From a virus: a stretch of 64,000 bases of DNA. The stretch covers positions 1 through 64,000 of IMG/VR virus record IMGVR_UViG_3300044953_000377; one strand, written 5' to 3'. Below, piece by piece: positions 16,228 to 32,509 of the stretch (its first letter is position 1; each line of letters starts with the position of its first letter). The notes under the pieces are model-generated. The model was not told the origin of the DNA, ran no database searches, and worked only from the letters and a program-made list of their open reading frames with translations. Made by a program: the position numbers and the translations under genes.

Positions 16228-16245
16228 CTATCTTATTTTAATCCT

Positions 16246-16359
16246 ATGAGCCCCCAGTTTTTAGTTATAGCACATTACACAGAAAACACTTTATACGAAG
16301 CACTCGCTGGCAATCTTAAGCAGACTTTGGCAAAATTTAAAATAAAATTCATTACATAA
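16246..16359 (+). pseudogene. N-terminal fragment of a glycosyltransferase-like gene
   Basis: A 37-residue frame (MSPQFLVIAHYTENTLYEAL and onward) ending in TAA. Its pattern, a hydrophobic strand followed by xYTENTLYE and then a helix and KFKIKFIT, matches the first 35 residues of the glycosyltransferase-like proteins at 16772 and 18129 (xIIAYCTNDPYYLGL, FISFYSGDSYYE). It stops abruptly where an HNH endonuclease gene begins, so it is probably the stub of a gene broken by that insertion. It could also be a short expressed peptide. Confidence 0.55.
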
Positions 16360-16782
16360 TGAAAAAGAAAAGAAGCCAAACAGAAGAACAAAAAATAAGA
16401 CGAGCAGAAAGTATTAAAGCTTGGAATATTTTAAACAAAAATCATATAGCTGAAAAAAGAAAAGAATATAGCAATAAAAATCGGGATAAAATAGCTAAAT
16501 ATCAAAAGGAATATAGAGAAAAAAAAAGGATATACTAAAAAATCAAAAACATATGAGATATTAGGATGCTCATATGCGGATTTTAAAATGTATATAGAGA
16601 ATAAATTCTTCGAAGGAATGACACGGGAAAATCACGGAGAATGGCATTTAGATCATAAAATCCCAGTATCATCCGCTAAAGACGAGAATACACTAATTAA
16701 ATTAAATCATTATTCAAATTTTCAGCCATTATGGGCAAAAGATAATATTAAAAAAGGAAATAAATTAAACTATGAGATATAA
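16359..16782 (+). pseudogene. HNH homing endonuclease with a frameshift in an A9 run
   Basis: The ATG at 16359 opens a 59-codon Lys/Arg-rich frame that stops at 16538. The +1 frame carries on from the A9 run at 16519-16527 to 16782 with a typical phage HNH core: EWHLDHKIPVSSA, then LNHYSNFQPLWAKDN and KKGNK. Joining the frames restores one protein of about 140 residues. A single change in the A run explains the break; transcriptional slippage on A9 could still yield some full-length enzyme, and a homopolymer sequencing error is possible. Its last 11 bases overlap the next gene. Confidence 0.85.
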
Positions 16783-17392
16783 AATTATAGCATATTGTAC
16801 GAATGATCCTTATTATTTAGGTCTTTCTAAAAAATTTGTAGAATCTTGTAATAATTTTAATCTACCATATCATTTAGATATTATAGAATCATTAGGTGAC
16901 TGGTGTTTAAATACACATTGGAAAGCAAAATTTATTTATAATTGTATGAATAGCATCGACTCTGAATATCTTTTATATGTTGATGTTGATGCAATTTTTA
17001 GAAAATATCCTATTCTTTTAGATTCTATAAATTGTGACATTGCCTATAGAACAGAAAATTTCAGATGGAGATCTGATGAGGCATTATCGGGTACTGTGTT
17101 TTTTAAGAATAACAACAATGTAAAGAATCTTGTTAGTCGATGGATAGAATTAAATGAATCCAATCCTGCAGAAAGGATGAAACCAGAAACATGGGAGCAA
17201 AAAAATATGCAAAGAGCTCAAAGAGAGATGCCTGAAATAGATTATTTTAATCTACCTCCTGAATATACATATATTACAGATCACACTAAAACAATGTATC
17301 CAGGATTATTTCCCGTCATTGAGCATTTTCAAGCTTCTAGAGAGACTCATAGAAATACGAATCAAAAATCCAATTTAAGAATAAGAAGATAA
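16772..17392 (+). CDS. glycosyltransferase-like protein with DxD motif
   Basis: A 206-residue protein with GT-A features: an N-terminal strand (YKIIAYCTNDPYYLGL), a mid-protein LLYVDVDAIF with D71-V-D73 that would bind a metal and nucleotide-sugar, and a later EALSGTVFFKNN acceptor-side segment. It resembles the proteins at 18129 and 18764 and is probably a paralogue. Donor and acceptor are unknown. The stop (TAA) overlaps the next ATG by one base. Confidence 0.75.
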   Translation: MRYKIIAYCTNDPYYLGLSKKFVESCNNFNLPYHLDIIESLGDWCLNTHWKAKFIYNCMNSIDSEYLLYVDVDAIFRKYPILLDSINCDIAYRTENFRWRSDEALSGTVFFKNNNNVKNLVSRWIELNESNPAERMKPETWEQKNMQRAQREMPEIDYFNLPPEYTYITDHTKTMYPGLFPVIEHFQASRETHRNTNQKSNLRIRR

Positions 17393-18129
17393 TGAAATTA
17401 AAATATGCCGTAGTAAGCTCTAATTCAAACCCAGAGTATCTAGACTTTTGGCCATATGTTGCAAAGGCATGGAAAACCCTTATAGGATTAGACCCCATAC
17501 TTCTTTATATAGATAATAATCCGCCACCTGGATGGGTTCATGAACACGGGAAGGTTTATTATTTAGTAGCAAGAAGTGACTGGGATATTGTTCAGCAATC
17601 GCAGTGTATAAGATTTTGGGCAGCTAATATTTTAGATAAACCCTTTATCATATCAGATATGGATATGCTTCCTATATCTCGCGATTACTATATAAATCAT
17701 GCAGAATACATAGGTGATACCGGATTAATATCTTATAGCTCTGATATCATTAAATATAGATGGTACAGAACAAATCCACAATATCCAATGTGTTATCTTG
17801 CTGGAGATCCCAAAAGTTTTTCGGATCTTCTAGATTTAAATGAAGAAAGCCATTTGGAGTTTCTTTTAAGATTGAAAAAAATGAATCTGCGAAGTGGAAC
17901 TGATCAGAAGTTTTTTTATAATCAAACACTAAGAAAATCTGGATACTATATTAAACATCTTGAAAGAGGCTGGATAGAAGAAAAATACGCTACTGGTAGG
18001 TTGGATAAGGTAATATGGCCTAAAAACGACTATAATGCGCATGAATATATAGATTGCCATTTACCAAGGCCATATATTAACAATAGAAATATCTGTGATG
18101 TTTTATTTAATAAATTGAATATTAGCTAA
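17392..18129 (+). CDS. glycosyltransferase-like protein with DMD motif
   Basis: A 245-residue protein beginning KYAVVSSNSNPEYLDFWPYV with FIISDMDMLPIS near residues 86-97, a DxD motif following a hydrophobic strand as in GT-A folds. The protein at 26778 begins almost the same way (IIVSSDDSDFLNFWPVVSQA), so the two are paralogues at opposite ends of the island. Specific sugar unknown. Confidence 0.72.
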   Translation: MKLKYAVVSSNSNPEYLDFWPYVAKAWKTLIGLDPILLYIDNNPPPGWVHEHGKVYYLVARSDWDIVQQSQCIRFWAANILDKPFIISDMDMLPISRDYYINHAEYIGDTGLISYSSDIIKYRWYRTNPQYPMCYLAGDPKSFSDLLDLNEESHLEFLLRLKKMNLRSGTDQKFFYNQTLRKSGYYIKHLERGWIEEKYATGRLDKVIWPKNDYNAHEYIDCHLPRPYINNRNICDVLFNKLNIS

Positions 18130-18767
18130 TGAAGCCTATTTTTATATCTTTTTATTCAGGGGATTCATATTACGAAAGATGTTCTCAAGTACTTCTTAGT
18201 AAATGTAAGTCTCTTGGGATAGAAATAGATATAAAAAGATCTGGCGGATATGCAGAGTATTGGAAAAATACATTATATAAGCCCTCTTTTATATATGATA
18301 AATTAAATCTACTAAAAAAAGATTTGGTTTGGATAGACATCGATACTGATATACTCGAATATCACAGTGAATTTAAAAAGTGGGATTCTGACATACTTTT
18401 TGCTAGTCACACTGGTGATCTGCAAGGAATTAAAGCATCCCCAATTTGTATTAAATACAATGAAAGATCTATGGAATTTTTAAAGTATTTAAAAGATTTA
18501 TGTTTAGAAAAAATAACAAAGAATGAGATAGATTTTGATCACGATGTTCTTAAATACGTTGCTCTCCCTAAATTTAAGAATAAATTATGGGTAGATATAA
18601 TGAGGGGCGACGGATTTAGAAGCGATGATTTTAGTAATGGCAAAATTATAAATAATGGGATATCTAGAGTTAGAGATAAGAATATCTACGTTAGGGAGGT
18701 ACTTAGAAAAAATATTAAAAGGACTAAAGAATTTGATTCGTGCTCATTAAAAGATTTTTTAATATGA
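18129..18767 (+). CDS. glycosyltransferase-like protein with DIDTD motif
   Basis: A 212-residue protein with VWIDIDTDI at about residues 68-76 after a KPSFIYDKL helix, the same layout as the next protein (KPVFIKEII, VWIDGDTHI). These two look like a tandem duplication. A late DFDHDVLKY segment (near residue 138) is likewise shared as ELDHDAIKH. Confidence 0.72.
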   Translation: MKPIFISFYSGDSYYERCSQVLLSKCKSLGIEIDIKRSGGYAEYWKNTLYKPSFIYDKLNLLKKDLVWIDIDTDILEYHSEFKKWDSDILFASHTGDLQGIKASPICIKYNERSMEFLKYLKDLCLEKITKNEIDFDHDVLKYVALPKFKNKLWVDIMRGDGFRSDDFSNGKIINNGISRVRDKNIYVREVLRKNIKRTKEFDSCSLKDFLI

Positions 18768-19639
18768 AAAGAAGCATTAAAGTAACTAGACAATTAATAA
18801 ATAGGGGATTTAATCCTCGTATGTCTAAAATTTTCAGTAGCAATACTGATACTAATCAAGAAAAACCTAAAGAGACCAAAGAAGAAAAACCTAAGGAGGA
18901 CTGGGAAGAAAAATCTAATCATCACACGGAAGAAAAAGATATGAGTTTATTTAGACCTATAGAAAACCCAAGAGAGAGAACACATATAAATGAATGGAAA
19001 AACATAACAGGGAAAGAAACTATATTTGTTTCTTTTATTTCTGATCCTATTGGCAGTGATTTTTATTCTTCTAGAATAGAGGGACTGGTAAAAAAATTAA
19101 ATGAATTTGGATCTGATTACATAGTTAGACAATATCCTTCAGATAGGCATTATTTTCAGAACTGCTGTTTTAAGCCCGTTTTTATAAAAGAAATTATAGA
19201 AAAATACGATAAGAATATTGTTTGGATTGACGGAGATACTCACATTAAAAAATGTCTAGGCCTTTTTACTTTAGATGGCGATTATGATATTGGATTAGTT
19301 TCTTATACTGATGATATAAGTTCTTTTGTTGCTTCTCCTATATTTTTTAGGAACACCTTACAATCAAAAGCATTAATAGATGCTTGGGAAAAACACTGTA
19401 CCCTTAAAATTGAAAATGGAATATGTGAGTTAGATCACGATGCAATAAAGCATTCAATAATTCCTCAGTTTAAAGATGTATTAAAGATTAAACTGAACGA
19501 CGGAAATTATCATAGGGGAGATATCATAGAAAACGTTAATTCAAGTGTGCCTGAAAAAAGAATAGTGATACAAGAAATGGCATCAATAAATTCTAAAAGA
19601 CCTTTTAATCTTACTAACAAAGACTTTAACATAGTATGA
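18764..19639 (+). CDS. glycosyltransferase-like protein with DGDT motif and charged N-terminal linker
   Basis: About 291 residues from the ATG at 18764, which overlaps the previous stop by 4 bases (ATGA) as most neighbours do; an in-frame ATG at 18740 would add 8 residues and is less likely. After a basic start there is a Lys/Glu/Pro-rich disordered linker to about residue 80, absent from its paralogue at 18129, then the same catalytic domain with WIDGDTHI near residue 156. The linker might anchor the enzyme to a partner. Confidence 0.7.
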   Translation: MKRSIKVTRQLINRGFNPRMSKIFSSNTDTNQEKPKETKEEKPKEDWEEKSNHHTEEKDMSLFRPIENPRERTHINEWKNITGKETIFVSFISDPIGSDFYSSRIEGLVKKLNEFGSDYIVRQYPSDRHYFQNCCFKPVFIKEIIEKYDKNIVWIDGDTHIKKCLGLFTLDGDYDIGLVSYTDDISSFVASPIFFRNTLQSKALIDAWEKHCTLKIENGICELDHDAIKHSIIPQFKDVLKIKLNDGNYHRGDIIENVNSSVPEKRIVIQEMASINSKRPFNLTNKDFNIV

Positions 19640-20481
19640 AAAAATTAAAAACTAATTGGGCTCCATTTCCTTATGAATATTCATCATGTTCCAATTTTAA
19701 GCCAGAGGATTTTGAATGGTCTAGAACGGAGGGGATAGCTAATATTGCTATCGATCATCAGATAATGTCGCATAATTTTCCATTAAGCGAGAAAAATTTT
19801 GGATGGTTTTGCGAGTCCAGTGAAATTCTTCCCGAATTAAAAGAGTATTTGAAATCAAACACATCAACACTCAGAAGAAAATTTAAAAATATATTTACTG
19901 CCGATCAAGAAATAATATTATGGGATCCATCTTTTTTTATTTTTAATCCTCCGGGGTCAAATTTACCGTGGACCCCTAAAAGTAATTATAGGATACCTGA
20001 AAAGAGCAAAGTTTGTTCAATGATTTGTAGCTCTAAAAGCATGACAAGTGGACATAAGATGAGATTGGCTATTGCAGAAAAGCATTACGGAATATTTGAT
20101 CTTTTCGGCGGTGCCTACGGTAGTTCTAGAATAGGATCTGGATTAGGGCCCAACGGAGATTGGTGGAGATCAAAAGAAGAGGCACTCGCCCCCTATATGT
20201 TTTCTATTGTTTTTGAAAATGCTAAGGTTGATAAGTATTATACTGAGAAAATAACTGATTGTTTTGCTTTAGGTGTGATACCTATTTACTGGGGAACTGA
20301 TAAAATATCCGAGGACTTTAATCCTGGCGGGATTATTAAATGGGAGGACAATTTTGATTTTAGCTCGCTTACTAGGGACCTATATGATTCCAAGATTTCA
20401 TATATAAAAGAAAATCTAGAAAGAGTTAAAGAATTAAAATCTGCAGATTCTCAGATTTTCAACAAGATAAAAAACTTATGA
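19636..20481 (+). CDS. alpha-fucosyltransferase-like protein (family GT10)
   Basis: A 281-residue protein whose C-terminal half has the GT10 signature: FSIVFENAKVDKYYTEK at about residues 189-205 followed by ITDCFALGVIPIYWG. GT10 enzymes move L-fucose from GDP-fucose onto GlcNAc or related sugars, as in Helicobacter Lewis antigens. The same island encodes both steps that make GDP-L-fucose from GDP-mannose, which strongly supports the assignment. The start overlaps the previous stop by 4 bases and the next gene does the same at the end. Confidence 0.85.
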   Translation: MKKLKTNWAPFPYEYSSCSNFKPEDFEWSRTEGIANIAIDHQIMSHNFPLSEKNFGWFCESSEILPELKEYLKSNTSTLRRKFKNIFTADQEIILWDPSFFIFNPPGSNLPWTPKSNYRIPEKSKVCSMICSSKSMTSGHKMRLAIAEKHYGIFDLFGGAYGSSRIGSGLGPNGDWWRSKEEALAPYMFSIVFENAKVDKYYTEKITDCFALGVIPIYWGTDKISEDFNPGGIIKWEDNFDFSSLTRDLYDSKISYIKENLERVKELKSADSQIFNKIKNL

Positions 20482-21200
20482 CCAAATTAAACATAGTAGC
20501 TGCATCTAGGCAAAGGCCTGTAAGGATGTATAATGTGGTTAAAAAATGGTTAGATAATGCGGTTAATCCGGAGTTTATAAGGGCAATCATATCAATAGAT
20601 TCTGATGACCCAATGTCTGATCAATATTTCAATCTACTAAATCCCTTATCTACTGAGTACAATACAAAAATTTCCGTGATAATTAATCCTAATACATGTA
20701 CAGTAGAAGCTATAAACTCAATTAAACCTCATATAGATGGAGAGCTTATTTTGGTATTTTCTGATGATACTGATTGCTTTGGATCTTGGGATAAGCAGCT
20801 GTTAGATTTTTCTTCTGAACTATCGGGAAAATATGTAATAAAAACATCCGATGGTATAGGTAAGGATCTTATTACGATGCCTATATTTTCTAAAGATTAT
20901 TTAGATTGCTTTCCTTACATATATCATCCTTCATACAAGCATATGTTTTGTGACACTGAGCTCACTTGTGTAGCTAGTATGCTTGGATGTGTAATAAACG
21001 GGGAACATTTTGAATTCCAGCATTTGCATTATTCTAGATCGCATCACGATAAAGATTCTGTTGATGATAAAAATCAGTCCACATTTTATGAAGGAATGGA
21101 AATATTTAAAAGAAGACTTGAAAATAATTTCGATCTTTCACCTAAAGAAGTAAAAGGAAAAATACCAAAACAGATAATAAAATGGATTGCTCGAAAGTAA
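20478..21200 (+). CDS. glycosyltransferase-like protein (GT2-type) with SDDTD motif
   Basis: A 240-residue protein with an N-terminal strand (LNIVAASRQRP), a helix, then LILVFSDDTDCFGSWD at about residues 89-104, the DxD site of GT-A/GT2 folds, and a His-rich HLHYSRSHHDKDS segment near residue 180. Sugar and acceptor unknown. It overlaps the next gene by 19 bases. Confidence 0.68.
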   Translation: MTKLNIVAASRQRPVRMYNVVKKWLDNAVNPEFIRAIISIDSDDPMSDQYFNLLNPLSTEYNTKISVIINPNTCTVEAINSIKPHIDGELILVFSDDTDCFGSWDKQLLDFSSELSGKYVIKTSDGIGKDLITMPIFSKDYLDCFPYIYHPSYKHMFCDTELTCVASMLGCVINGEHFEFQHLHYSRSHHDKDSVDDKNQSTFYEGMEIFKRRLENNFDLSPKEVKGKIPKQIIKWIARK

Positions 21201-21844
21201 ACCTTAGTAATGTAACTTTAGTTTGTATTGATGGGAGGGATGAGTGTGAAGACAGGACATCACTATACAGGGATATATTTAGGTATACCTTAAATCATTT
21301 TAATTTTAATAGGGTTTTTTTCTTTAGCCACATCCCCTATGATTTTAAAGGTGTGGAAACAATAAGTATATGGAAACTAGGTAATGTTGGTGAGTATTCT
21401 AACTTCTGTATGAAAATATTAAATAGATATATTAATACAGATTTTTGTATGATTATGCAGGACGACGGATTTATCATAAATCCTAATTTATGGGATGATC
21501 AGTTTTTGACATATGACTATATAGGTGCTCCCTGGCCTATAGGGCTAGGAACTACAACTGCTGAAACTCAAGTTGGCAACGGCGGGTTTTCAATAAGGAG
21601 TAAAAGATTTCTTGAATTTAGTTCGAGCCTTTTTCCGACTATGCAAAACGAAGACAAGTATATACTAGATACAAATAGGAGGGCACTAAATTCAGCTAAC
21701 TTAAAAATAGCACCAGTTGAATTAGCTAAAAAGTTCTCTGTCGAGATAAGTATAGATAATAAGCATGTACTAAAAAATTGTTTTGGATTTCATGCAAAAC
21801 ATCTATTACCTGAAGCAGTAAAATATATAAAACAAAAAAAATGA
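21182..21844 (+). CDS. DUF5672-type glycosyltransferase-like protein
   Basis: A 220-residue protein with the hallmark string of this family: MIMQDDGFIINPNLWDD near residue 90, DYIGAPWP, and VGNGGFSIRSKRFL. Family members occur in polysaccharide clusters and are treated as glycosyltransferases. It overlaps the next start by 4 bases. Confidence 0.78.
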   Translation: MDCSKVNLSNVTLVCIDGRDECEDRTSLYRDIFRYTLNHFNFNRVFFFSHIPYDFKGVETISIWKLGNVGEYSNFCMKILNRYINTDFCMIMQDDGFIINPNLWDDQFLTYDYIGAPWPIGLGTTTAETQVGNGGFSIRSKRFLEFSSSLFPTMQNEDKYILDTNRRALNSANLKIAPVELAKKFSVEISIDNKHVLKNCFGFHAKHLLPEAVKYIKQKK

Positions 21845-22419
21845 GTAAAGAAATAAGAGCATTTAACACAGATTATAAACTTGCGGAAAGATTTATATTT
21901 ATAAAAAATAAATATGAAATAAAAACTGCAATAGAGACCGGTACATATCACGGGGATACTACTTCTTGGCTGGCTGAAAATTTTGAAAATGTTTATACAG
22001 TAGAATATGATAAAAGATATCTGGATGTCGCTCAGAATAAAATATCACAATATGATAATATAAAAAGTTATCTGGGTAGTAGTACTGATTACCTCGGAAA
22101 ATTTTTAGAGGAATGTAAGGATAAAGGAGAAATTATAATTTTTCTAGACGCACATTGGTATGCTAATCCAGTTTTACAGGAACTAGAAAGAATAAAAGAG
22201 TCGGGGTTAAAACCAATTATAGCTATTCATGATTTTAAGGTACCCGGAAGGCCAGATCTTGGTTATGATGAATATCCTAATCAGGATATAGTTTACGATT
22301 GGGAATGGATAAAGGAAAGAATAGAATCTATATATGGCATTGGCCAATTTGATATTGAATATAATACATATTCCGATCAAAATATGAGGGGATGTATATT
22401 CTTATTACCTAAAAAATAA
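21841..22419 (+). CDS. class I SAM-dependent methyltransferase-like protein
   Basis: A 192-residue protein with AIETGTYHGDTTSWLA near residue 30 (Gly-rich SAM loop), VYTVEYDKRYLDVA as the acidic second strand, and IIIFLDAHWYANPVL near residue 100. This layout is common in sugar or cell-surface methyltransferases. The target is probably a glycan, judging from the neighbours. Confidence 0.7.
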   Translation: MSKEIRAFNTDYKLAERFIFIKNKYEIKTAIETGTYHGDTTSWLAENFENVYTVEYDKRYLDVAQNKISQYDNIKSYLGSSTDYLGKFLEECKDKGEIIIFLDAHWYANPVLQELERIKESGLKPIIAIHDFKVPGRPDLGYDEYPNQDIVYDWEWIKERIESIYGIGQFDIEYNTYSDQNMRGCIFLLPKK

Positions 22420-22424
22420 AAAAA

Positions 22425-23117
22425 ATGATAAAATTAAACGATTACAGAAGAAGCGTGTACTCACAGTCCGGAGAAGACGGTATATTAGAAAAACTATTTC
22501 AAACTCTAGGAATATCAGAGGGACAATTTTGTGAATTTGGCGCTTCTGACGGTATGTCATATTGTAACACTAGAAAATTAAGAGAAGAGGGATGGAGTGG
22601 TGTATTGATTGGAGGTGATCCTTCATACTCTGAGAGAATAAAAAATAATCTGAAGGATTTTAAAAACGTACAGATAATAGAGTCTTTCATCAGCTGTGAA
22701 AATGGGAATACCCTTGACGATTTACTTAAAGATACGGAATTAAAAAATAATTTTGATTTTATCTCTATTGATATAGACGGAAACGATCTATAGATATGGA
22801 AATCTATACAAAAATATGAGCCTAAGGTTGTTATGGTAGAGTATAATTCAAACTATCCCTCGACATCTAGCCTTTGTATAAAATATGATAAGGATCATAG
22901 ACATCAGCTAGATGCCTATTATAGTGCAACTGCGGGGGCATATAAAAAATTAGCCGACGAGAGGGGATATAAATTAGTAGGATTTACCGAAGGACTAAAT
23001 CTCGTGTTCTGTAAAAAAGATATCTCTTCTTATTTATATGAATATCCTTTAGAGGAAATACCTTTGTTAAGAGTATGTCCAGTAATAGAAGGAAGGGATC
23101 TTTTAATATATGAATAA
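22425..23117 (+). pseudogene. FkbM-like methyltransferase gene interrupted by one TAG codon
   Basis: The frame runs 22425-22790, meets TAG at 22791-22793 and continues in the same frame to 23117. Upstream are FCEFGASDGMSYCNT (SAM site) and FISIDIDGND; the TAG falls right after DGNDL, and IWKSIQKYEPKVVMVEY follows as the normal next strand of such enzymes. The intact protein would be about 230 residues. The TAG could come from CAG (Gln) by one C-to-T change. Read-through or reinitiation at the ATG at 22833 cannot be excluded, but the second half alone lacks the SAM site. Confidence 0.8.
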
Positions 23118-23788
23118 TGAAAGTAATATCCTTTTCCTTATGGGGACAGAATGAGAGATACTTTTTAGGTGCATTTAGAAATTGCGAGCTTGCTACGAAG
23201 TGGTATCATGGATGGAAATGTTACTTTTATGTAAGATCAGATTCCAATAGTGAATATGTTAATAAATTAAGATCATACGAAAATTCTGTCGTGATAGAAA
23301 TAAATTCTATTGATGATAAAAGAGGATTATTCTGGAGATTTATGCCTGCATTCGACAAATCTATAGATGTAACTATCGTAAGGGATTGCGATTCTCGTTT
23401 ATCTGAGAGAGAAGCATTAGCAGTTGATAAATGGTTAAAAAGCGATAAGGTATTCCATATCATGAGGGATCATCCTTATCATAATACTGAAATTCTAGGT
23501 GGTATGTGGGGGGTTAAAAATAAATCTGTCGATTTGGGCGAGGTTTTAACTCTAGATATAATCTCTAGCTATAGGGACGAATATCAAGAAGACCAGAGGT
23601 ATCTTAGAGAAAAAATATGGCCATTAGTTAAGGATGATTCAATCATTCATGATGAATTCTTTGGGGGTATTAAATTTCCTAAGGAAAGGAATAACTATGA
23701 CGACTTTGTAGGGCAGCAATATAATGACATGGATTTACCAGTAAAAGAAAATTCTGATATACTTAAAAAATACCTAGAATCCAAATGA
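23117..23788 (+). CDS. glycosyltransferase-like protein with RDCDSR motif
   Basis: A 223-residue protein starting KVISFSLWGQNERYFLGAFR and carrying VTIVRDCDSRLSERE near residues 85-99, a DxD-type motif after a hydrophobic strand. Proteins of this pattern occur in viral and bacterial polysaccharide clusters; exact activity is unknown. It shares a one-base overlap with the previous stop and a 4-base overlap with the next gene. Confidence 0.65.
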   Translation: MKVISFSLWGQNERYFLGAFRNCELATKWYHGWKCYFYVRSDSNSEYVNKLRSYENSVVIEINSIDDKRGLFWRFMPAFDKSIDVTIVRDCDSRLSEREALAVDKWLKSDKVFHIMRDHPYHNTEILGGMWGVKNKSVDLGEVLTLDIISSYRDEYQEDQRYLREKIWPLVKDDSIIHDEFFGGIKFPKERNNYDDFVGQQYNDMDLPVKENSDILKKYLESK

Positions 23789-24630: not shown

Positions 24631-25178
24631 TATTTAGGTTCGATGATGTCTGCATAAATGCTGACATGGATCTCATTAACGATATGACAGATTTTCTTTT
24701 TGTAAGATTCCCTGACTGCGAAGTTTTATGGGGGGTTTCACCGCTAGTCAATGATATGTCAAAAGAAGAAACTAATGTGGGTAAACAAAGGATATTTCCT
24801 AAGATATTAAATGCCTATTCAGATCATAGAAAATTTTACTCTGTTGATAAAGCAGGCCTTCCTAAATTACACACTAAAGCTAAAATGGCTTCTCATGGCC
24901 TTTTACATGTTGATCATAGATTACTAACTAAAGAAGCTCAAGAGATGAGTATATTGGTTAGCTCTAGCTTGGCAAAAGCAAATGTGTTTATACCTCCTTT
25001 TAATAAATGGAATGCTGATACAGAGAGTATATGCAATGAGCACGGAATAGAGCTAATTAAATTTGAGGATGGATGGCTTTGTATGGAGTACAATAAATTT
25101 AATCCATTTCACAAAAAATGGTATCTACACGCAAGAGAATTTAACCTTGATCAATTTATTAAATGGTTCGATGCTTAA
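24627..25178 (+). CDS. polysaccharide deacetylase-like protein
   Basis: About 183 residues if it starts at 24627 (ATGA overlap with the previous gene); an ATG at 24618 adds three residues. MIFRFDDVCINAD carries the Asp-Asp of NodB-type deacetylases, MASHGLLHVDHR carries the His-x3-His metal ligands, and VFIPPFNKWN matches the FxPPxxxxN strand. The family removes acetyl groups from sugars using a divalent metal. A glycan substrate made by this island is the natural inference. Confidence 0.75.
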   Translation: MIFRFDDVCINADMDLINDMTDFLFVRFPDCEVLWGVSPLVNDMSKEETNVGKQRIFPKILNAYSDHRKFYSVDKAGLPKLHTKAKMASHGLLHVDHRLLTKEAQEMSILVSSSLAKANVFIPPFNKWNADTESICNEHGIELIKFEDGWLCMEYNKFNPFHKKWYLHAREFNLDQFIKWFDA

Positions 25179-25736
25179 TTTAGATAAAATCTATAGGGAT
25201 AAATTTCAATCTAATAACGAGGTTAAATCCTTAGGATGGGGAAGTAAATACTCACAAGAGAAAAGATTTGAAGTTTTATTAGAAATACCAGGTTTTAAAA
25301 AAACGGATAGTGTTCTCGATGTAGGATGTGGATATGGTGATTTATCAAAGCATATTGAAAACTATACCGGGATCGATTTAAGAAAAAGTGCAATAGATGT
25401 AGCATGTAAAAAATATGGTGATTCTAAATTCTTTCATTGTGATATTTTTTCTATAGATTCCACCTATGATTGGGTATTTGGATCTGGTATATTTTGTTTT
25501 ACTAAGGATTGGAAAAAATATACAGAACTACATATTAATAGAATGTACTCAATATCCAATAAAGGTACTGCATTCAATTTCCTCTCTTATAAAATAAAAT
25601 AAATGGTAAAAAAATGAGAGGTATGAAGTATGCTAAAATACAAGAAGCTGTTTCTATAGTTTATCCTATATGCAAAAAATTCTCAGTTAGACGTGACTAT
25701 TTAGATAATGACTTTACAATATACTTACATAAATGA
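25171..25736 (+). pseudogene. SAM methyltransferase gene with a single frameshift
   Basis: The ATG at 25171 (8-base overlap with the previous gene) opens 143 codons with SVLDVGCGYGDLS, YTGIDLRKSAIDVA and a natural break at FNFLSYKIK, where TAA (25600) stops it. The next frame is open from 25593 and ends at 25736 with FSVRRDYLDNDFTIYLHK, which is the usual C-terminus of this methyltransferase type. One base change in the A/T-rich run around 25590-25603 reunites a protein of about 188 residues. The tail overlaps the next start by 4 bases, the spacing expected of the original gene end. Confidence 0.78.
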
Positions 25737-26218
25737 AAAAAGAATTAATAGACCATAAATGGGGAGGATCTGGGATAGAAAAGGAACTTTTTGATTTTAT
25801 TCTTAAAAGATTCCCTGAAGGATCTACAATAATAGAATTAGGATCTGGATATTGCAGTACTAAAGCATTCTCATTATACTATGACACATATTCTATAGAT
25901 GAGAATGCTGATTATATAAACATCTTTGATGGAGTAAAATACCTTCATTCACCAAAAAAAGATGGGTGGTACGACAGAGATAGTGTGAAAGATTTTCTAC
26001 CAATCGAATACTCTCTTGTTTTTGTCGACGGCCCTTCTGGTGAAGGTAATAGAGACGGATTAATAAGAAATCTAGATTTATTTAGAAGTGATGCTTCTTT
26101 TATTTTTAATGACACATATAGGGATCCTGAAAAAAATCTAGCAGTCGAGATATCCAGAATCTTAAATAGACCTGTAAAATTTTATGAGACGTCAGATTTT
26201 TGGGGTTATATAAAATAA
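25733..26218 (+). CDS. SAM methyltransferase-like protein
   Basis: A 161-residue protein with STIIELGSGYCSTKAFSLY near residue 30, YSIDENADYINIF as second strand and YSLVFVDGPSGEGNRDG near residue 98. It has a Rossmann methyltransferase core with a minimal C-terminal part. It follows the broken methyltransferase with a 4-base overlap. Confidence 0.65.
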   Translation: MKKELIDHKWGGSGIEKELFDFILKRFPEGSTIIELGSGYCSTKAFSLYYDTYSIDENADYINIFDGVKYLHSPKKDGWYDRDSVKDFLPIEYSLVFVDGPSGEGNRDGLIRNLDLFRSDASFIFNDTYRDPEKNLAVEISRILNRPVKFYETSDFWGYIK

Positions 26219-26223
26219 AATCC

Positions 26224-26781
26224 ATGACAATATCGATACATCAGCCTAACTTTTTTCCTTATTATCCTTTCTTTCAGAAAATGAATGATTCTGACATTTT
26301 TGTAATACTTAAGCATTGTCAGTTCGAAAAGAATAATTATCAAAACAGATTTAATAAAGATGGAAGGTGGCACACAATGTCAGTAAATAAAGGTTTATAT
26401 CCGATAAATACTAAAGTATACATTAATCCTGAAAAAGATTGGGAAAGAATAAAGAATAATCTATCTGATTACAAGAATATTTTAAACCAATTTGATGATT
26501 GTATTAGTTCTAATCTATCCGAGACTAATATATCAATAATAATGAAAATAAGAGACATTCTTGGAATTAAAACTAAAATCCTGTTAGATTATCCTACAGA
26601 TCTTTTATCTACTGAAAGACTTGTAAATATATGTATAAAGAACGGTGCTAATAAGTACATCTCTGGAATTTCCGGATCTAAATATCTAGATTTGAATTTA
26701 TTTAAGGAAAATAATATAGATGTTGTTTTTCAAAACCCAGATGAGATGATAAGTAAGCCTATAATAGAATTTTTAAAATGA
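26224..26781 (+). CDS. WbqC-like family protein
   Basis: About 185 residues from the ATG at 26224. The N-terminus ISIHQPNFFPYYPFFQKM is the family hallmark (WbqC, PF08889), followed by SDIFVILKHCQFEKNNYQNR. WbqC-like proteins are found in O-antigen and capsule clusters, with a proposed glycine- or amino-acid-transfer role. The 6 codons upstream of this ATG that would overlap the previous gene are unlikely to be used. Overlaps the next gene by 4 bases. Confidence 0.85.
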   Translation: MTISIHQPNFFPYYPFFQKMNDSDIFVILKHCQFEKNNYQNRFNKDGRWHTMSVNKGLYPINTKVYINPEKDWERIKNNLSDYKNILNQFDDCISSNLSETNISIIMKIRDILGIKTKILLDYPTDLLSTERLVNICIKNGANKYISGISGSKYLDLNLFKENNIDVVFQNPDEMISKPIIEFLK

Positions 26782-27629
26782 TTAATAGAATAATAGTAAG
26801 TTCTGATGATTCAGATTTTCTAAATTTCTGGCCAGTTGTTTCTCAAGCGTGGAAAAAGTTCTTTCCCGAGGCTAAAATAACATTAGCTTTTGTTACGGAT
26901 AGAGATAACGTAGATTTTTTGAATAAATTAGAGTCCTTTGGTGATGTTTATTTATTTCCGAGAGATAAATCCGTTCCATCTGCAAACCAAGCTAAAATAT
27001 GCAGGCACATTTTAGCATGTCTATTTTATGATGAAGTCTCTATGATAGAAGATATAGATACTGTTCCTATGCAGAGGAAGTTTATTGAGAAAATAGCATA
27101 TGAATATGAAGATGGAAAAATACTTTTTGTTGGTAAAGAAGTTTATAATAATACACCCGACGAGGGAAAAATTCCAATTAGTAACATGACTGGTAGAGGA
27201 TCAGATTTCTCTGTTATTTTTGACCCTAATTCTATCATTAGAAAAAGCATAGAAGGTAAAAGATTTACTGAAGATATATTTAAAATTTGGGATGAATGGA
27301 AATTGCTGAACGTTTTCGACCAAAAAGAATCAATTTTAAATACCCCGGATCCTTTAGGAATAAGAGGATTTTCTGATGAATCGATGATTAGAGCATTAAT
27401 AGAGAAAACATCATCACATAGTATTACCAAAAAAATAAACAGATCCGTTGATATAAGAGATAAATGGATTGACAGATCCTGGTGGAGTATAGACGAAGTA
27501 AAAATGAAAAATGAGCACTACGTTCTATGTAATTTTTTAAGACCTTTTAGATCTAATTATATTATGTGTAAACCGGTTATAGATTTTATATTTGAAAAAA
27601 ATATGGAATCTTACCCTTTCCTTATCTAG
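26778..27629 (+). CDS. glycosyltransferase-like protein with EDIDT motif
   Basis: A 283-residue paralogue of the protein at 17392: IIVSSDDSDFLNFWPVVSQA at the start, and VSMIEDIDTVPMQRKF near residues 88-103 at the place of its DMD motif. The C-terminal half is longer, with ILFVGKEVYNN and a Trp-rich WIDRSWWSIDE stretch near residue 235. It ends the first run of overlapping genes; a 41-base gap follows. Confidence 0.7.
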   Translation: MINRIIVSSDDSDFLNFWPVVSQAWKKFFPEAKITLAFVTDRDNVDFLNKLESFGDVYLFPRDKSVPSANQAKICRHILACLFYDEVSMIEDIDTVPMQRKFIEKIAYEYEDGKILFVGKEVYNNTPDEGKIPISNMTGRGSDFSVIFDPNSIIRKSIEGKRFTEDIFKIWDEWKLLNVFDQKESILNTPDPLGIRGFSDESMIRALIEKTSSHSITKKINRSVDIRDKWIDRSWWSIDEVKMKNEHYVLCNFLRPFRSNYIMCKPVIDFIFEKNMESYPFLI

Positions 27630-27650
27630 AAACTATTTTTTAATTTTTTT

Positions 27651-27657
27651 GTATAAT
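27651..27657 (+). promoter_or_regulatory. GTATAAT promoter-like element before the fucose genes
   Basis: GTATAAT follows a seven-T run and ends 13 bases before the ATG at 27671. It sits in one of the few gaps in the island, so the nucleotide-sugar genes may have their own promoter. Confidence 0.45.
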
Positions 27658-27670
27658 TTTAAAATCGATA

Positions 27671-28597
27671 ATGAAAGTTTGCGTATTAGGATCTAGTGGA
27701 TTAGTTGGATCCAATCTATACAAAAAATATTTAGAGAAATATCCAGAGGATAGCATCTTAGCTCCTAAGAGATATAATTTGAATTTAACTTCTTGGAAGG
27801 ATACCATAGATTACTTTTTAACACATAAGCCTGACGTTGTTTTTCTTTGTGCTGCCAAAGTTGGTGGTATAAAAGCAAATAATGATAATAAAGCTAGTTT
27901 TATAACTACTAACCTAAAGATACAAACAAATGTTATTGAATCTTGTCATTTGTCGGGTGTTAAAAAATTAGTTTTTCTTGGATCTTCTTGCATATACCCT
28001 AAAAATTGTCCGCAGCCTATAAAGGAAGAATATCTTTTAACTGGACCTTTAGAAGAAACTAATGATGCTTATGCTATAGCAAAGATAGCTGGTATTAAGA
28101 TGTGTCAATCGTATAGACAGCAGTACGGCACAGATTATATCTCTGTTATGCCTTGTAATCTTTATGGGCCAGGTGATAATTTTGATCTTAATACAAGTCA
28201 CGTTCTCCCCGCTCTAATTAGAAAATTTCACGAGGCTAAAAAAAATAATCTCCCTGAGGTTGAAGTGTGGGGTACTGGAAAACCAATGAGGGAATTTTTA
28301 TACGTTGAAGATTTAGCTGAAGCGCTTATTTATTTATCAGAAAATTATTCTTCGGATAAAATAATAAACGTGGGATCAGGGGAAGACATTTCTATATCAG
28401 ATCTTTCTAATCTCATAGCTAAGGTTGTTGACTATACTGGATCTATAAGATTCAATACGGATTACCCCGATGGGACTTATCGTAAAGTTATGGATGTTTC
28501 TAGAATTTTTGAAATAGGATGGAGACCTAAACATAGCATAGAAGAGGGGATTAAAAAAACTTATGAATATTATCTATACCGATATGACCGGAAATAA
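27671..28597 (+). CDS. fcl: GDP-L-fucose synthase
   Basis: A 308-residue short-chain dehydrogenase/epimerase. GSSGLVGSNLYKKY is the NAD(P) loop; FLCAAKVGGIKANN, FLGSSCIYPKNCPQPI (with catalytic Ser), and the Tyr-x3-Lys in DAYAIAKIAG are all as in the fcl/WcaG family, including VWGTGKPMREFLYVEDLAEA. The enzyme epimerises and reduces GDP-4-keto-6-deoxymannose to GDP-L-fucose, the donor for the GT10 protein at 19636. Length is normal. Confidence 0.95.
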   Translation: MKVCVLGSSGLVGSNLYKKYLEKYPEDSILAPKRYNLNLTSWKDTIDYFLTHKPDVVFLCAAKVGGIKANNDNKASFITTNLKIQTNVIESCHLSGVKKLVFLGSSCIYPKNCPQPIKEEYLLTGPLEETNDAYAIAKIAGIKMCQSYRQQYGTDYISVMPCNLYGPGDNFDLNTSHVLPALIRKFHEAKKNNLPEVEVWGTGKPMREFLYVEDLAEALIYLSENYSSDKIINVGSGEDISISDLSNLIAKVVDYTGSIRFNTDYPDGTYRKVMDVSRIFEIGWRPKHSIEEGIKKTYEYYLYRYDRK

Positions 28598-28614
28598 TAA
28601 TTTAATAGATATAA

Positions 28615-28755
28615 AAAAATAAGGGAATTTGCTTTTGTACGGAATCTTTTAATATTGATGATCTATTAATAATACAAAATAAATTTTATGAAATAGGAAT
28701 AAAATCTTCTATACATAAAAATAAAAGGATATATCTGGACAAAAAAATAAAATAA
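28615..28755 (+). pseudogene. remnant of a LAGLIDADG homing endonuclease
   Basis: The 200-base gap between fcl and gmd contains an open frame with no ATG encoding about 46 residues. FCTESFNIDDLLIIQNKF, then IKSSIHKNKRIYL, resembles the C-terminal domain of LAGLIDADG_2 enzymes (LCTDSFTxEE..., then a Lys-rich RIYI strand). Only this tail remains, so it is a degraded mobile-gene scar between two genes of one pathway. The rest of the gap shows nothing. Confidence 0.6.
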
Positions 28756-28797
28756 TTTTTTATAAAATAATTGAAGACGGAAAAATAAAAATACAGG

Positions 28798-29844
28798 ATG
28801 AGTACAAATATAAATTCTTATAGCGGAAATAAAACTGCTTTAATACTAGGATTATCAGGGCAGGATGGGAGTTATCTTGCTGAACTTCTTTTAGAAAAAG
28901 GGTACGAGGTACACGGAACAATCCGAAGATCGTCATCATTTAATACATGGAGGATAGACCATCTCAGAAAAAATCCAATGTTTAAGTGGCACTATGCTGA
29001 TGTTACAGATCCTGTTTCTATTGGTAATTTGATTTCTGCAATTAATCCTGACGAGCTTTATAATTTAGCAGCACAAAGTCATGTTAAGATATCTTTTGAA
29101 ATCCCTTATTATACTGGACAAGTAGATGCTATAGGAACATTGAATGTTTTAGAAGCAATAAGAACACATTCTCCAAAAACAAAACTATACCAAGCTTCAA
29201 CTTCTGAATTATATGGTAAAGTACAAGAAATTCCACAGAAAGAAAGTACACCTTTTTATCCCCGAAGCCCTTATGGAGTTGCTAAACTATATGGATTTTG
29301 GATAATAAAAAATTACAGGGAAGCATACAATATATTTGCTTGTAATGGAATATTATTCAACCACACTTCTCCTAGGAGAGGCGAAAACTTTGTGGAAAAA
29401 AAGATAGTCGATGGGCTGGTTGATATCAGTCTTGGAAAATCTAATATTTTAAGACTAGGAAATCTGAATTCTTCCAGAGATATAGGACATGCTAAAGAAT
29501 ATGTTGAAGGTATGTGGAGAATGCTACAACAAGAAACTCCTGCAGATTTTGTTCTAGCTACTGGTGTTTCCTACACGATAAGGGAGATATTAGAAATGAC
29601 TGCTATTAAATTAGGGATGGAGATCGAATTCTCTGGCGAAGGAATTAATGAGATAGGGATTAGAAAAGACAATGGCAATAAAATAATAGAAATTGACAGT
29701 AAATATTTTAGACCATCTGAGGTTGATCTATTGATAGGAGATGCTACGGAAGCTAAAAAGATATTAGGATGGGAACCAAAGTTATCTTTATCCGATATAA
29801 TAGATGAAATTATAGAAGATAAAATAAAATCTTATGGACTATAA
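28798..29844 (+). CDS. gmd: GDP-mannose 4,6-dehydratase
   Basis: A 348-residue enzyme with the full family pattern: LILGLSGQDGSYLAELL, GTIRRSSSFNTWRIDHL, YNLAAQSHVKISFE, the Tyr-x3-Lys in RSPYGVAKLYGFW, FNHTSPRRGENFVEKKI and YFRPSEVDLLIGD. It converts GDP-mannose to GDP-4-keto-6-deoxymannose, the substrate of fcl. GDP-mannose must come from the host. It overlaps the next gene by 11 bases. Confidence 0.96.
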   Translation: MSTNINSYSGNKTALILGLSGQDGSYLAELLLEKGYEVHGTIRRSSSFNTWRIDHLRKNPMFKWHYADVTDPVSIGNLISAINPDELYNLAAQSHVKISFEIPYYTGQVDAIGTLNVLEAIRTHSPKTKLYQASTSELYGKVQEIPQKESTPFYPRSPYGVAKLYGFWIIKNYREAYNIFACNGILFNHTSPRRGENFVEKKIVDGLVDISLGKSNILRLGNLNSSRDIGHAKEYVEGMWRMLQQETPADFVLATGVSYTIREILEMTAIKLGMEIEFSGEGINEIGIRKDNGNKIIEIDSKYFRPSEVDLLIGDATEAKKILGWEPKLSLSDIIDEIIEDKIKSYGL

Positions 29845-30412
29845 TCTGTTAATAGAAAAAGAGATAGAATATCTAAGGAATATTCCAGTTGATAGGGTAA
29901 GTGACATAGTCAATCAAATACACTGGTCGTTATCATCAGGAAGAATAATAACTTCAGGTATGGGAAAAGCAGGTCAGATAGCACACACGTTTGCAACCAC
30001 TCTTTCGTCTACTGGTACTCCTGCATTTTTTCTCCATCCCTCCGAGGCACAGCATGGGGATCTTGGTATAGTTCAGCCCGGAGATATAATTATAGTTTTT
30101 AGTAATTCAGGAAAGACTAGAGAAGTTATTGAGCTCATAGATCTTATTCATAATCTTGAATATAAAAATTACATATATGCAGTAGTTGGAACCAAAACCG
30201 AAGATATCTCTATAAAATGTGCAGACTACATTGAATTTGGTCCTGTCGAGGAAATATGCCCTATTGGACTAACCCCGACAACTTCCACTACCTGTATGTC
30301 TGTTATATCTGATCTAATCGTAGTCGGTCTGATGGATAAGAATAATTTTACTAAGAAAGAATATTCAAAACTACATCATGGGGGATATCTCGGCGACAAA
30401 TCAAGAAAATAA
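29834..30412 (+). CDS. kdsD: D-arabinose 5-phosphate isomerase, SIS domain only
   Basis: A 192-residue protein with the KdsD/KpsF SIS core: SGMGKAGQIAHTFATTLSST near residue 42, FFLHPSEAQHGDLG, IIVFSNSGKTREVIEL and PTTSTTCMSVISDL, ending in KLHHGGYLG where the family has HPGGxLG. It makes arabinose 5-phosphate from ribulose 5-phosphate, the first step to KDO. Typical KdsD is about 320 residues with two C-terminal CBS domains; these are missing here, as in some other short homologues. The next gene, kdsA, overlaps it by 35 bases. Confidence 0.88.
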   Translation: MDYNLLIEKEIEYLRNIPVDRVSDIVNQIHWSLSSGRIITSGMGKAGQIAHTFATTLSSTGTPAFFLHPSEAQHGDLGIVQPGDIIIVFSNSGKTREVIELIDLIHNLEYKNYIYAVVGTKTEDISIKCADYIEFGPVEEICPIGLTPTTSTTCMSVISDLIVVGLMDKNNFTKKEYSKLHHGGYLGDKSRK

Positions 30413-31181
30413 GATACTAATAGCAGGACCTTGTGTTATCCAAAGTTGGGACACGTGTTTTGAGATAGCAACAGAGGTTAGGAGATGTGGACTTCTCCAT
30501 AATTTCCAAACAATATTTAAAGCAAGTTTTGATAAGGCTAATAGAACATCTACTGATGGCTTTAGAGGGATAGGTATAGATAAGGGTTTAGAAGTGCTAA
30601 GAAATATAAAAGCTCGTTTAAACATAGACATAATAACAGACGTGCACGAAACTAACCAGGTTGAAAAAGTGGCTTCTGTTGTTGATTATTTACAAATTCC
30701 TGCATTTCTATGTAGACAAACAGATCTAATAGAAGCTTGCGCTAAAACGGGTTTACCGGTTTTAATTAAGAAAGGTCAATTTCTTTCTCCTGAATCTTGT
30801 AAATTCATAGAGGACAAATTTTATAATTTCGGTGGCAACGAGTTAATGATAGGCGAAAGAGGAAATACTTTTGGATATAATGATCTTATAGTTGATGCAA
30901 CATCGATAACAAGATTAAAAAAATCATGCGGAAGATCTAAAATAATTATGGACTGTACTCACAGTTTGCAAAGGCCTAATGGGACTAACGGGAAAACTGA
31001 AGGAAGAGGTGAAATGATAGAGGACATGGTTAAGTTTGCTTCTGTTATGAATGCTGATGGATTATTTATAGAAACTCATCCCTATCCTAATCTTTCTCCT
31101 TCTGATTCGGAAAATATGCTAGAACTTAATAAATTAGAGGGAATAATTAAAAAATCTAGATTAATATATGACACCCACTAA
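30378..31181 (+). CDS. kdsA: 3-deoxy-D-manno-octulosonate 8-phosphate synthase
   Basis: A 267-residue enzyme, normal length. ILIAGPCVIQSWDTCFEIA at residues 13-31, FKASFDKANRTS, GLEVLRNIKARLNIDIITDV, LQIPAFLCRQTDLIEA, PVLIKKGQFLSPE and IMDCTHSLQRPNG are all characteristic of KdsA. It condenses arabinose 5-phosphate with phosphoenolpyruvate to KDO-8-phosphate. Cys19 and the DCTHS pattern are compatible with a metal-type KdsA. Phosphatase and CMP-KDO synthetase are not in this window, so the host may complete the path. Confidence 0.95.
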   Translation: MGDISATNQENKILIAGPCVIQSWDTCFEIATEVRRCGLLHNFQTIFKASFDKANRTSTDGFRGIGIDKGLEVLRNIKARLNIDIITDVHETNQVEKVASVVDYLQIPAFLCRQTDLIEACAKTGLPVLIKKGQFLSPESCKFIEDKFYNFGGNELMIGERGNTFGYNDLIVDATSITRLKKSCGRSKIIMDCTHSLQRPNGTNGKTEGRGEMIEDMVKFASVMNADGLFIETHPYPNLSPSDSENMLELNKLEGIIKKSRLIYDTH

Positions 31182-31878
31182 ATTACTAGATATCGTTGTA
31201 ATTAGCTATGCTAAGGACGATTATTGTAAAAATCTTACTAGAAGTTGTATAGCATCTATACTAAACTCAGAGAGCAATGCTATTAAAGATTTTAATATCA
31301 TAGTGGTAGAATCTGAACCTGGTGTTAAATGGGAGGATTTAGCTGAAAATGTAAAAACATATGAAGCTCCTCTCCCTTATGGATATCACAAATTTTTAAA
31401 TTTCGGTAGGAAGCAAGGAAATTCACCGTGGGTTGCTCTATGTAATAATGACCTGGAGTTTACTAAAGGATGGTTTACCAATATCATTAATGCTTCTAAA
31501 AATGTTCCTAGTGCAGTGTCTTTTTCTCCCATTTGCCCTAAAACCCAGACTCTTTATGGAATATATGAAAATACTGGATTAATCGAGGGATATGAAATAA
31601 GAAAGCATATATCAGGATGGTGTATAGTACATAAAAGGGAAATATACGATGCTATAGGAGATCTTGATGAAAGATTTCACCATTGGTTCTGCGATAATGA
31701 TTACTCAATGGAATTAATGAAAAATAGGATTAGACACCTACTAGTAACAAATTCAGTTGTTGTGCATCACGATAAAAACATAGGTAAGACAACAGAAAGA
31801 GTTGTAAGGGATTACGATTTAATGTATAAAATGACTAGCGGATCTTACCCTGTATTTAAGGAAAAATGGAACTTATAA
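31168..31878 (+). CDS. GT2-type glycosyltransferase
   Basis: A 236-residue GT-A protein: LDIVVISYAKDDYCKNL at the start, WVALCNNDLEFTKGW near residues 88-102 (NND in place of DxD), HISGWCIVHKREIYDAIG and FHHWFCDNDYSMELMK as the acceptor/catalytic-base region. These are standard for rhamnosyl/Glc-type GT2 enzymes. It overlaps kdsA by 14 bases. Confidence 0.82.
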   Translation: MTPTKLLDIVVISYAKDDYCKNLTRSCIASILNSESNAIKDFNIIVVESEPGVKWEDLAENVKTYEAPLPYGYHKFLNFGRKQGNSPWVALCNNDLEFTKGWFTNIINASKNVPSAVSFSPICPKTQTLYGIYENTGLIEGYEIRKHISGWCIVHKREIYDAIGDLDERFHHWFCDNDYSMELMKNRIRHLLVTNSVVVHHDKNIGKTTERVVRDYDLMYKMTSGSYPVFKEKWNL

Positions 31879-31888
31879 AAATATAGAT

Positions 31889-32509
31889 ATGACTAGATAT
31901 GACATAATAAACAGGATTATTAAAAACAGAGGATATAAAAATTATCTTGAGATTGGTGTGAAAGATGGTGCATGCTTTAAGGAGATTTGCTGTGAAAATA
32001 AAACGGGAGTAGATCCTGCTCCAATTTCCACAGACACTACCCACATAATGACATCAGATTCTTTTTTCAATTCTCTAGAGCCGGATCAAAAATTTGATAT
32101 TATCTTTATTGATGGTTTACATTTGGAATATCAGGTAGATAGGGACATTGAAAACTCTTTAAATTATCTATCTGAAGGGGGAACTATTGTTTTACATGAC
32201 TGTAATCCACCAACTAAATCTCATGCGGAAGAGGGACCAGTTTTTACTGCGCCTGCAAATGGGAATTGGAACGGAACGGTATATCTTTCTTTAGTAAAAT
32301 TGAGACTTTACAGGAACGATCTAAAATTGGTAACTGTTGACACTGACTGGGGAGTAGGAATATTAACTAGAGACGCTAGTGAAACACTTGATGTATTTCC
32401 TAGCGAGGCTACAACCTGGGATTTTTTTACACGAAACAGACATATCGTATTAGATTTAATATCTCCTGAGGAATTTGAAGAAAATTATCCCGTTGATGAA
32501 ACAGAATAG
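31889..32509 (+). CDS. class I SAM methyltransferase (Methyltransf_24 type)
   Basis: A 206-residue protein with KNYLEIGVKDGACFKEI near residue 16, KTGVDPAPISTDTTH, FDIIFIDGLHLEYQVDRDIE near residue 70 and GGTIVLHDCNPPTKSH near residue 101. The IDGxH and LHDxxP strings are typical of sugar or peptide methyltransferases in polysaccharide clusters. It is the last gene of the glycan island and ends in TAG. Confidence 0.82.
   Translation: MTRYDIINRIIKNRGYKNYLEIGVKDGACFKEICCENKTGVDPAPISTDTTHIMTSDSFFNSLEPDQKFDIIFIDGLHLEYQVDRDIENSLNYLSEGGTIVLHDCNPPTKSHAEEGPVFTAPANGNWNGTVYLSLVKLRLYRNDLKLVTVDTDWGVGILTRDASETLDVFPSEATTWDFFTRNRHIVLDLISPEEFEENYPVDETE

Follow-up and report, generated by a model that had tools for sequence, protein, structure and literature searches.

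A glycan-gene island in the virion block of a large freshwater phage, with a centre that near-identical relatives seem to exchange in the manner of a serotype locus

The window analysed here opens a linear virus sequence of 148,217 bp (IMG/VR record IMGVR_UViG_3300044953_000377), of which it covers 64 kb, and carries at positions 16772-32509 an island of glycan-building genes within the virion gene block of a large phage. Among related phages the ends of this island are conserved and its centre can differ completely between genomes that are almost identical on both sides of it; near-identical sister phages seem to swap their sugar-coat genes much as bacteria swap serotypes. We hold it to be somewhat more likely than not that this phage-borne island acts in the manner of a serotype locus and that its soluble enzymes make a glycan.

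Relatives (designated G001 and onwards) were gathered by a capsid-protein search, which yielded 80 related loci, all of them metagenomic contigs. The phages G002 and G003 are ~98-99% identical over ~45 kb and have no homology across a centre of 6.4/9.5 kb. At the DNA level most 500-bp segments of the two are 97-100% identical from the capsid gene to 14.5 kb of G003 and again from ~22 to 53 kb, with nothing detectable at 15.0-21.5 kb; six flank proteins are 99% identical and no centre gene is held in common. The window and G001 likewise have flanks that are 91-92% identical around a non-homologous centre, with breakpoints at the 3' end of the left-edge glycosyltransferase gene GT2 and the 5' end of fcl. 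More diverged pairs do have centre genes in common, namely 11 with 79% identity in G001 and G002 (flank identity 85%) and 11 with 66% identity in the window and G007 (flank identity 70%). A partial replacement within the centre was found between G012 and G027, in which ~97 kb including the fibre region are mostly 95-99% identical. The conserved ends consist of the glycosyltransferase genes GT1 and GT2 on the left and, on the right, of fcl, gmd, the KdsD and KdsA genes, a GT2-family glycosyltransferase gene and a Methyltransf_24 gene, with some lineage-specific losses. Among the window, G001, G002 and G003 the right-edge genes have 77-94% amino acid identity. Even lineages with only ~45% flank identity possess edge genes. 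In the GT2 gene of G003 (L102:12574-13347) we noted an in-frame duplication of 13 residues that is absent from the other relatives.

A Pfam scan of 64 centre proteins of the relatives revealed, among others, methyltransferases (FkbM and other types), glycosyltransferases (GT2 and GT11), epimerases, short-chain dehydrogenases, PhyH, hexapeptide transferases, two aminotransferase families, a dehydroquinate synthase-like enzyme, a cytidylyltransferase and WbqC; G002 has a polysaccharide pyruvyl transferase. By analogy with serotype genes, swaps of such centre genes would alter the chemistry of the glycan. Bacterial O-antigen and capsule serotype loci have conserved ends with sugar-nucleotide genes at one of them and a centre that is exchanged by recombination via the flanks. 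Judged from the genomes compared, wholesale exchange of the centre between conserved ends is the behaviour of such a locus, and the island would work like one without being a member of the class.

The site of the island is constant. We sought a downstream anchor gene (34409-36319) in 25 relatives and could read the interval from capsid to anchor in 21 of them. With the window included, this interval measures ~24-37 kb in 11 genomes and ~13-17 kb in the other 11. The extra DNA of every long interval is a glycan island (ten relatives and the window), which always lies between the minus-strand gene found at 15377-16108 in the window and the gene pair at 32769-33906. The 11 relatives without the island are more distant and have at its site a gene of ~145 amino acids, usually accompanied by one of ~308 amino acids; a homologue of the 145-residue gene (E 4e-9) was found at positions 144337-144855 of the present record (L086). 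On a tree of the major capsid protein (MCP), island-bearing and island-less groups fall on opposite sides of one split, and therefore a single gain or loss is enough to explain the distribution. No annotated glycan island was seen near the compared regions of the isolates PTm1 and MaF61.

The left edge in the window bears a scar, in which a GT1 stub is followed by a decayed nuclease gene and then by a complete GT1 of another allele (Table 1). The stub matches the N-terminus of GT1 in many relatives (58-81% identity) and starts, as theirs does, 137 bp past the end of the minus-strand gene, and the decayed nuclease is 59-81% identical to an intact gene of 209 amino acids in G004. That phage, with flanks ~65% identical to those of the window, has the same arrangement with the nuclease intact and a GT1 that is 83% identical to ours. 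Stub, nuclease and second allele form the pattern expected from intronless homing with co-conversion (PMC2988022), and F-CphI is a homing endonuclease with an endonuclease VII motif (PMC6083498). Both the family of the nuclease and its position next to GT1 in G004 and in the window fit a homing endonuclease. The scar suggests the outcome of a homing-driven exchange; homing would account for the exchange at the left edge and may also have driven exchange of the whole centre. With the free-standing homing endonucleases of T4 (seg/mob) and F-CphI the scar has in common an endonuclease beside its target gene, a truncated resident allele and a second allele supplied, whereas here homing is read from the scar alone and the nuclease copy of the window is decayed. 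Elsewhere in the island, a 200-bp insert separates fcl and gmd (28598-28797), genes that overlap in six of the seven relatives in which both were called; the insert is absent from relatives, and its LAGLIDADG likeness (the end of an endonuclease, in one frame) found no support in database searches. Beside the right edge of the island in G010 (L115:10681-11628) lies a protein of 316 amino acids that is endonuclease-like by eye and has no family match.

As to where the glycan goes, we favour glycosylation of the virion over remodelling of the host surface, with a confidence slightly above even. A simple hydropathy test found no membrane helix in any of 230 island proteins from 11 phages (7 of the 160 open reading frames of the record were positive), and 14 island-bearing records had no match to the families PF02397 (phosphoglycosyltransferase), PF01943 (Wzx) and PF04932 (Wzy/ligase), while the controls were positive. 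The island thereby differs from Wzx/Wzy O-antigen and capsule loci, as it has no Wzx, Wzy, ligase or initiating phosphoglycosyltransferase, and from the gtrABC serotype-conversion cluster with its membrane-embedded flippase and glucosyltransferase. Without membrane or export families a product of the Wzx/Wzy or gtr type is unlikely, and the acceptor is more likely to be cytosolic, whether a virion protein or lipid A-core. The exchange of the centre while the sampled tail genes stay near-identical also favours the virion. Furthermore, the top-ranked Protein Data Bank (PDB) match of the GT1 model is the glycosyltransferase A064R of chlorovirus PBCV-1 (template-modelling score, TM, 0.69-0.71; 14-16% identity), its nearest solved fold and an enzyme of that virus's capsid glycan, and the best viral models are those of Tetraselmis virus 1 and Fadolivirus, giant viruses of algae and protists (TM 0.79).

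Several observations weigh against a virion target. GT1 has 301 PDB matches at E<=0.001, and since GT-A fold similarity is so broad the PBCV-1 match is only a lead; the chlorovirus parallel is one of fold and pathway, not a proof. We identified no acceptor protein for the glycan, and no CMP-Kdo synthetase (Kdo, 3-deoxy-D-manno-octulosonate) was found in the 148-kb record. Kdo and fucose are also sugars of lipopolysaccharide (LPS), and the glycosyltransferases of the LPS core are soluble or peripheral too, so the lack of membrane proteins is compatible with an LPS-core target. The fibre comparison reaches only ~60 kb in the pairs G002/G003 and window/G001, where the contigs end. The head-block gene 7182-9131 has a variable C-terminal domain whose types do not follow the cassette type, and a coupling of the two was rejected. 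In G014, away from the island, a KdsB-like cytidylyltransferase gene and a HAD-like gene (L184:6754-7993) lie ~2 kb upstream of a GT2-family gene that is 54% identical to 31168-31878.

If the host surface were the target, the enzymes would alter the LPS core or another cytosol-facing envelope precursor, blocking co-infecting phages or freeing progeny, and cassette diversity would track the diversity of host surfaces. KdsA and KdsD supply Kdo, an LPS sugar, and the nearest solved relative of the SIS isomerase, PDB 3ETN (E 2e-55), is labelled a phosphosugar isomerase with a role in capsule formation; surface remodelling is moreover the reading preferred for clusters of the P-SSM2 and pelagimyophage kinds (PMC7824862, PMC7029224). 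The missing flippase, polymerase, ligase, phosphoglycosyltransferase and membrane helices speak against it, as does the pair G012/G027, in which the island differs and the fibre region is kept. We regard this explanation as possible, though rather doubtful. Near-neutral gain and loss of cargo, with many genes decaying, would agree with the two broken genes among the ~22 of the island and with the stuffer DNA suggested for cyanophage LPS clusters by Sullivan et al. 2010 (PMC3037559), but it is improbable in view of the conservation of the right-edge genes, the persistence of edge genes in distant lineages and the open state of most cassette genes.

Phage glycosyltransferases that act on DNA are known, and the moraphage authors list a role on DNA first (PMC12619734). 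Glycosylation of modified bases of the phage genome is nevertheless very improbable here, as no thymidylate synthase or dCMP-hydroxymethylase family was found in the record (which is possibly incomplete), with positive controls; a search of the record for TET/JBP was also empty, but its positive control was silent too and the result is uninformative. Mis-joining during metagenomic assembly might mimic cassette exchange, given that every sequence is a contig of this kind. However, an independent contig contains the G003 cassette, 99.9% identical and next to the same flank, which argues against a chimera, the G002 cassette is related to that of G001 at the same site, and both pairs have their breakpoints at GT2 and fcl, so that we give an artefact hardly any credence.

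Under the virion reading, the conserved ends would build an invariant inner part of the glycan and the cassette its outer part, and the whole might be put together within the cytosol on one of the structural proteins of the phage, just as chloroviruses glycosylate their capsid protein. Cassettes would be exchanged during co-infection by homologous recombination through the conserved ends, aided at least once by the free-standing endonuclease VII-like homing endonuclease beside GT1, and several of them may be kept circulating by diversifying selection from grazers, surface binding, co-infecting phages or particle stability. This full proposal of a coat-serotype system, in which the virion bears a glycan of its own making, constant in its inner part and exchangeable in its outer one, and one homing-promoted recombination at the edge of the locus switches the type among near-identical co-habiting phages, is put forward tentatively, with somewhat less than even confidence.

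Phage glycan clusters such as those of P-SSM2 and the pelagimyophages are known; what we consider new is the exchange of an entire cassette at one constant position among the virion genes. The suspicion of the earlier note on this DNA, made from the sequence alone, that the combination may be undescribed was thus partly right. Polymorphic glycan clusters have been reported between related T4-like cyanophages (PMC7824862), and P-SSM2, S-SSM7 and S-SM2 are, like the present phage, large tailed phages in which many genes for glycosyltransferases and sugar-nucleotide enzymes lie clustered; gmd is common to both, with 63% identity to S-SRM01. The cyanophage clusters adjoin hli or phoH and tRNAs (PMC3037559), whereas phoH lies at 59734 in the window, 27 kb from the island, and no tRNA was found in its 64 kb. 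The island also differs in its single fixed virion-block site within a Lak/PTm1-related lineage, its conserved edges and the whole-cassette exchange between near-identical phages. The pelagimyophage host-recognition cluster is likewise a hypervariable region of T4-like phages rich in glycosyltransferases, but it is a tail-fibre module that diverges gradually (PMC7029224); the island lies apart from the fibres and is fully replaced. Chloroviruses such as PBCV-1 have their own GMD and GMER for GDP-fucose as well as soluble glycosyltransferases and a methyltransferase (PMC5408694), and the island similarly has its own GDP-L-fucose synthesis and soluble glycosyltransferases without membrane segments. 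PBCV-1 is a eukaryotic virus with scattered, early-expressed genes (PMC5408694), while the island is one clustered, exchangeable locus. The moraphages, aquatic Bacteroidota-associated jumbo phages related to Lak, may be a related published lineage; their description (PMC12619734) reports four core glycosyltransferase groups and unexplained variable islands, and in the parts of it consulted there is no account of this locus, its conserved edges or the cassette exchange. For other genes, near-identical phages are known to replace cassettes (PMC7468147). In the openly available literature, subscription titles aside, we found no glycan locus in a virion block with conserved edges and wholesale replacement of the centre between near-identical phages.

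The open reading frame map and the profile searches confirmed a co-directional run of mostly overlapping glycan genes at exactly 16772-32509. It comprises 23 plus-strand open reading frames (~22 genes, two of them broken), where the earlier note had recognised the content and counted about 18. Its calls of glycosyltransferases, methyltransferases, a WbqC-like protein and nucleotide-sugar enzymes are supported by profile or fold: the island has matches to GT10, DUF5672, Glyco_trans_1_2, GT2, FkbM and other methyltransferases, WbqC and SIS/KdsD, at least six glycosyltransferases by profile or fold, and precursor genes for GDP-fucose (Fcl, Gmd) and Kdo-8-phosphate (a KdsD-type isomerase, KdsA). 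The predicted deacetylase, by contrast, had no match in Pfam, PHROG or NCBIfam. The island does lie between head genes (head protease and MCP, upstream) and baseplate genes (downstream) as had been described, but not in one uniform direction: five of the seven genes at 11115-16108, which separate the head genes from the island, are on the minus strand, and the island is therefore not simply part of one structural operon. Reassignment of a stop codon as the cause of the broken genes was ruled out, since TAA, TGA and TAG all terminate genes; two kinds of stop inside 7182-9131 also contradict it.

Table 1. Positions in the window of the island genes, the left-edge scar and the leader, with the evidence for each (pLDDT, predicted local distance difference test; SAM, S-adenosylmethionine)
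Feature	Position	Strand	Evidence or remark
Non-coding leader before the original GT1 start	16109-16245	+	Conserved in 15 distinct relatives
Stub of resident GT1 allele (MSPQ type), 37 codons	16246-16356	+	At the usual GT1 start position
Decayed free-standing endonuclease, endonuclease VII-like	16359-16782	+	PHROG 1035 endonuclease VII, E 1.7e-11
GT1, left-edge glycosyltransferase, GT-A fold, VDVD motif	16772-17392	+	AlphaFold2 pLDDT 87, alignment; no Pfam match
GT2, left-edge glycosyltransferase, GT-A fold	17392-18129	+	AlphaFold2 pLDDT 81; GT6/LARGE1-type matches; no Pfam match
Exchanged centre (cassette)	18130-27670		No homology to G001; flanks 91-92% identical
Two overlapping paralogous genes, probable glycosyltransferases	18129-18767, 18740-19639	+	One protein cluster, also present in G003, G004, G007 and G013; no Pfam match
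GT10 fucosyltransferase	19636-20481	+	PF00852 8.5e-7; PDB alpha-1,3-fucosyltransferase 3e-11
Putative glycosyltransferase	20478-21200	+	No profile match
DUF5672 protein	21182-21844	+	Profile match
Methyltransferase-like	21841-22419	+	Methyltransf_24, weak
FkbM-type methyltransferase, broken by in-frame TAG at 22791	22425-23117	+	Uninterrupted homologue in G007
Probable glycosyltransferase	23117-23788	+	No profile match
Glyco_trans_1_2 protein	23785-24630	+	PF13524 5e-16
Possible polysaccharide deacetylase	24618-25178	+	Motif resemblance by eye; no family match
SAM methyltransferase (Methyltransf_11/12), frameshifted near 25600	25171-25732	+	Profile match
Protein without significant profile match	25733-26218	+	
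WbqC-like protein	26200-26781	+	PF08889 5e-28
Putative glycosyltransferase, last gene of the exchanged centre	26778-27629	+	No Pfam match; homologue in G007
Fcl, GDP-L-fucose synthase	27671-28597	+	NCBIfam NF047922 433 bits, below 500-bit cut-off; best match
Insert between fcl and gmd, 200 bp; possible homing endonuclease remnant	28598-28797	+	LAGLIDADG likeness by eye
Gmd, GDP-mannose 4,6-dehydratase	28798-29844	+	TIGR01472 485 bits, above cut-off 415
Arabinose-5-phosphate isomerase, single SIS domain, KdsD/KpsF type	29834-30412	+	PDB 3ETN 2e-55; TIGR00393 2e-41, below cut-off
KdsA, Kdo-8-phosphate synthase	30378-31181	+	NF003543 315 bits, above cut-off 242
GT2-family glycosyltransferase, right edge	31168-31878	+	PF00535 6e-5; PHROG 22332 glycosyltransferase 1e-16; kept in most island-bearing relatives
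Methyltransferase (Methyltransf_24), right edge	31889-32509	+	PF13578 1e-10

The earlier note had further seen a T4-type late promoter core at the opening of the island and argued from late expression for virion glycosylation. The core, TATAAATA at 16220, lies in the leader, which has the pattern TGAAACT ... GACTAAAATTTTTAC-n3-GTAAATCCC, unique in the record. TATAAATA occurs in the 148-kb record in 13 plus-strand and 12 minus-strand copies, mostly within genes, with one intergenic plus-strand copy against 2.1 expected, and relatives mostly have TATGAATA or TATGAACA at the site. A T4-type late promoter at 16220 was consequently rejected, the motif being at chance frequency and not conserved, which leaves late expression to be inferred from position alone; chlorovirus glycosyltransferases, moreover, are expressed early (PMC5408694). 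The virion reading stands on the other evidence given above. An RNA hairpin in the leader was also rejected for want of covariation; the leader has no Rfam match, and no Rfam family was found anywhere in the window.

In the neighbouring head block, the gene at 7182-9131 has three in-frame stops (8541, 8583 and 8775) and its frame is still conserved beyond them; its homologues in G001-G003 are uninterrupted (647-673 amino acids), and its C-terminal domain is the sole other non-homologous patch (0.7 kb) between G002 and G003. An asparagine-synthase-like amidotransferase gene (9717-11132) is kept in 21 of 21 relatives (51-98% identity), with or without the island. On the minus strand, 11115-12629 encodes a protein in which a RimK-type ATP-grasp domain precedes a putative zinc-protease-like domain; the gene adjoins conserved genes without assigned function. 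Internal repeats were seen in 12686-13363 and 1261-1822, with many overlapping self-similar matches between relatives, which suggests length variation.

Comparison of the MCP (2505-4289) gave 39-42% identity with its counterparts in the uncultured huge phage LR756500 and in Prevotella Lak phages, with further matches in Tenacibaculum phages, Flavobacterium phage MaF61, Chryseobacterium phages and Sphingomonas phage PAU. Hosts among the Bacteroidota are therefore likely, though not proven. The virus is a large freshwater phage distantly related to the Lak, PTm1 and MaF61 phages. The nearest bacterial relatives of KdsA are mostly from Bacteroidota (~48% identity), which is consistent with such a host and not decisive, and 3ETN comes from Bacteroides fragilis. 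A host search with the MCP against bacterial genome contigs matched nothing.

Glycan clusters of the P-SSM2 type have long been known in phages, with the target of their products left open. The near-isogenic pairs (~98% identical outside the cassette) have the same particle genes and different glycan genes and allow a direct comparison. If the glycan is on the virion, these phages would come in serotypes, as bacteria and chloroviruses do, with consequences for their encounters with grazers, surfaces, immune systems and one another; if the target is the host surface, the same pairs would allow superinfection exclusion to be tested cleanly. In either case the result would shed light on why jumbo phages keep large sugar-gene islands.

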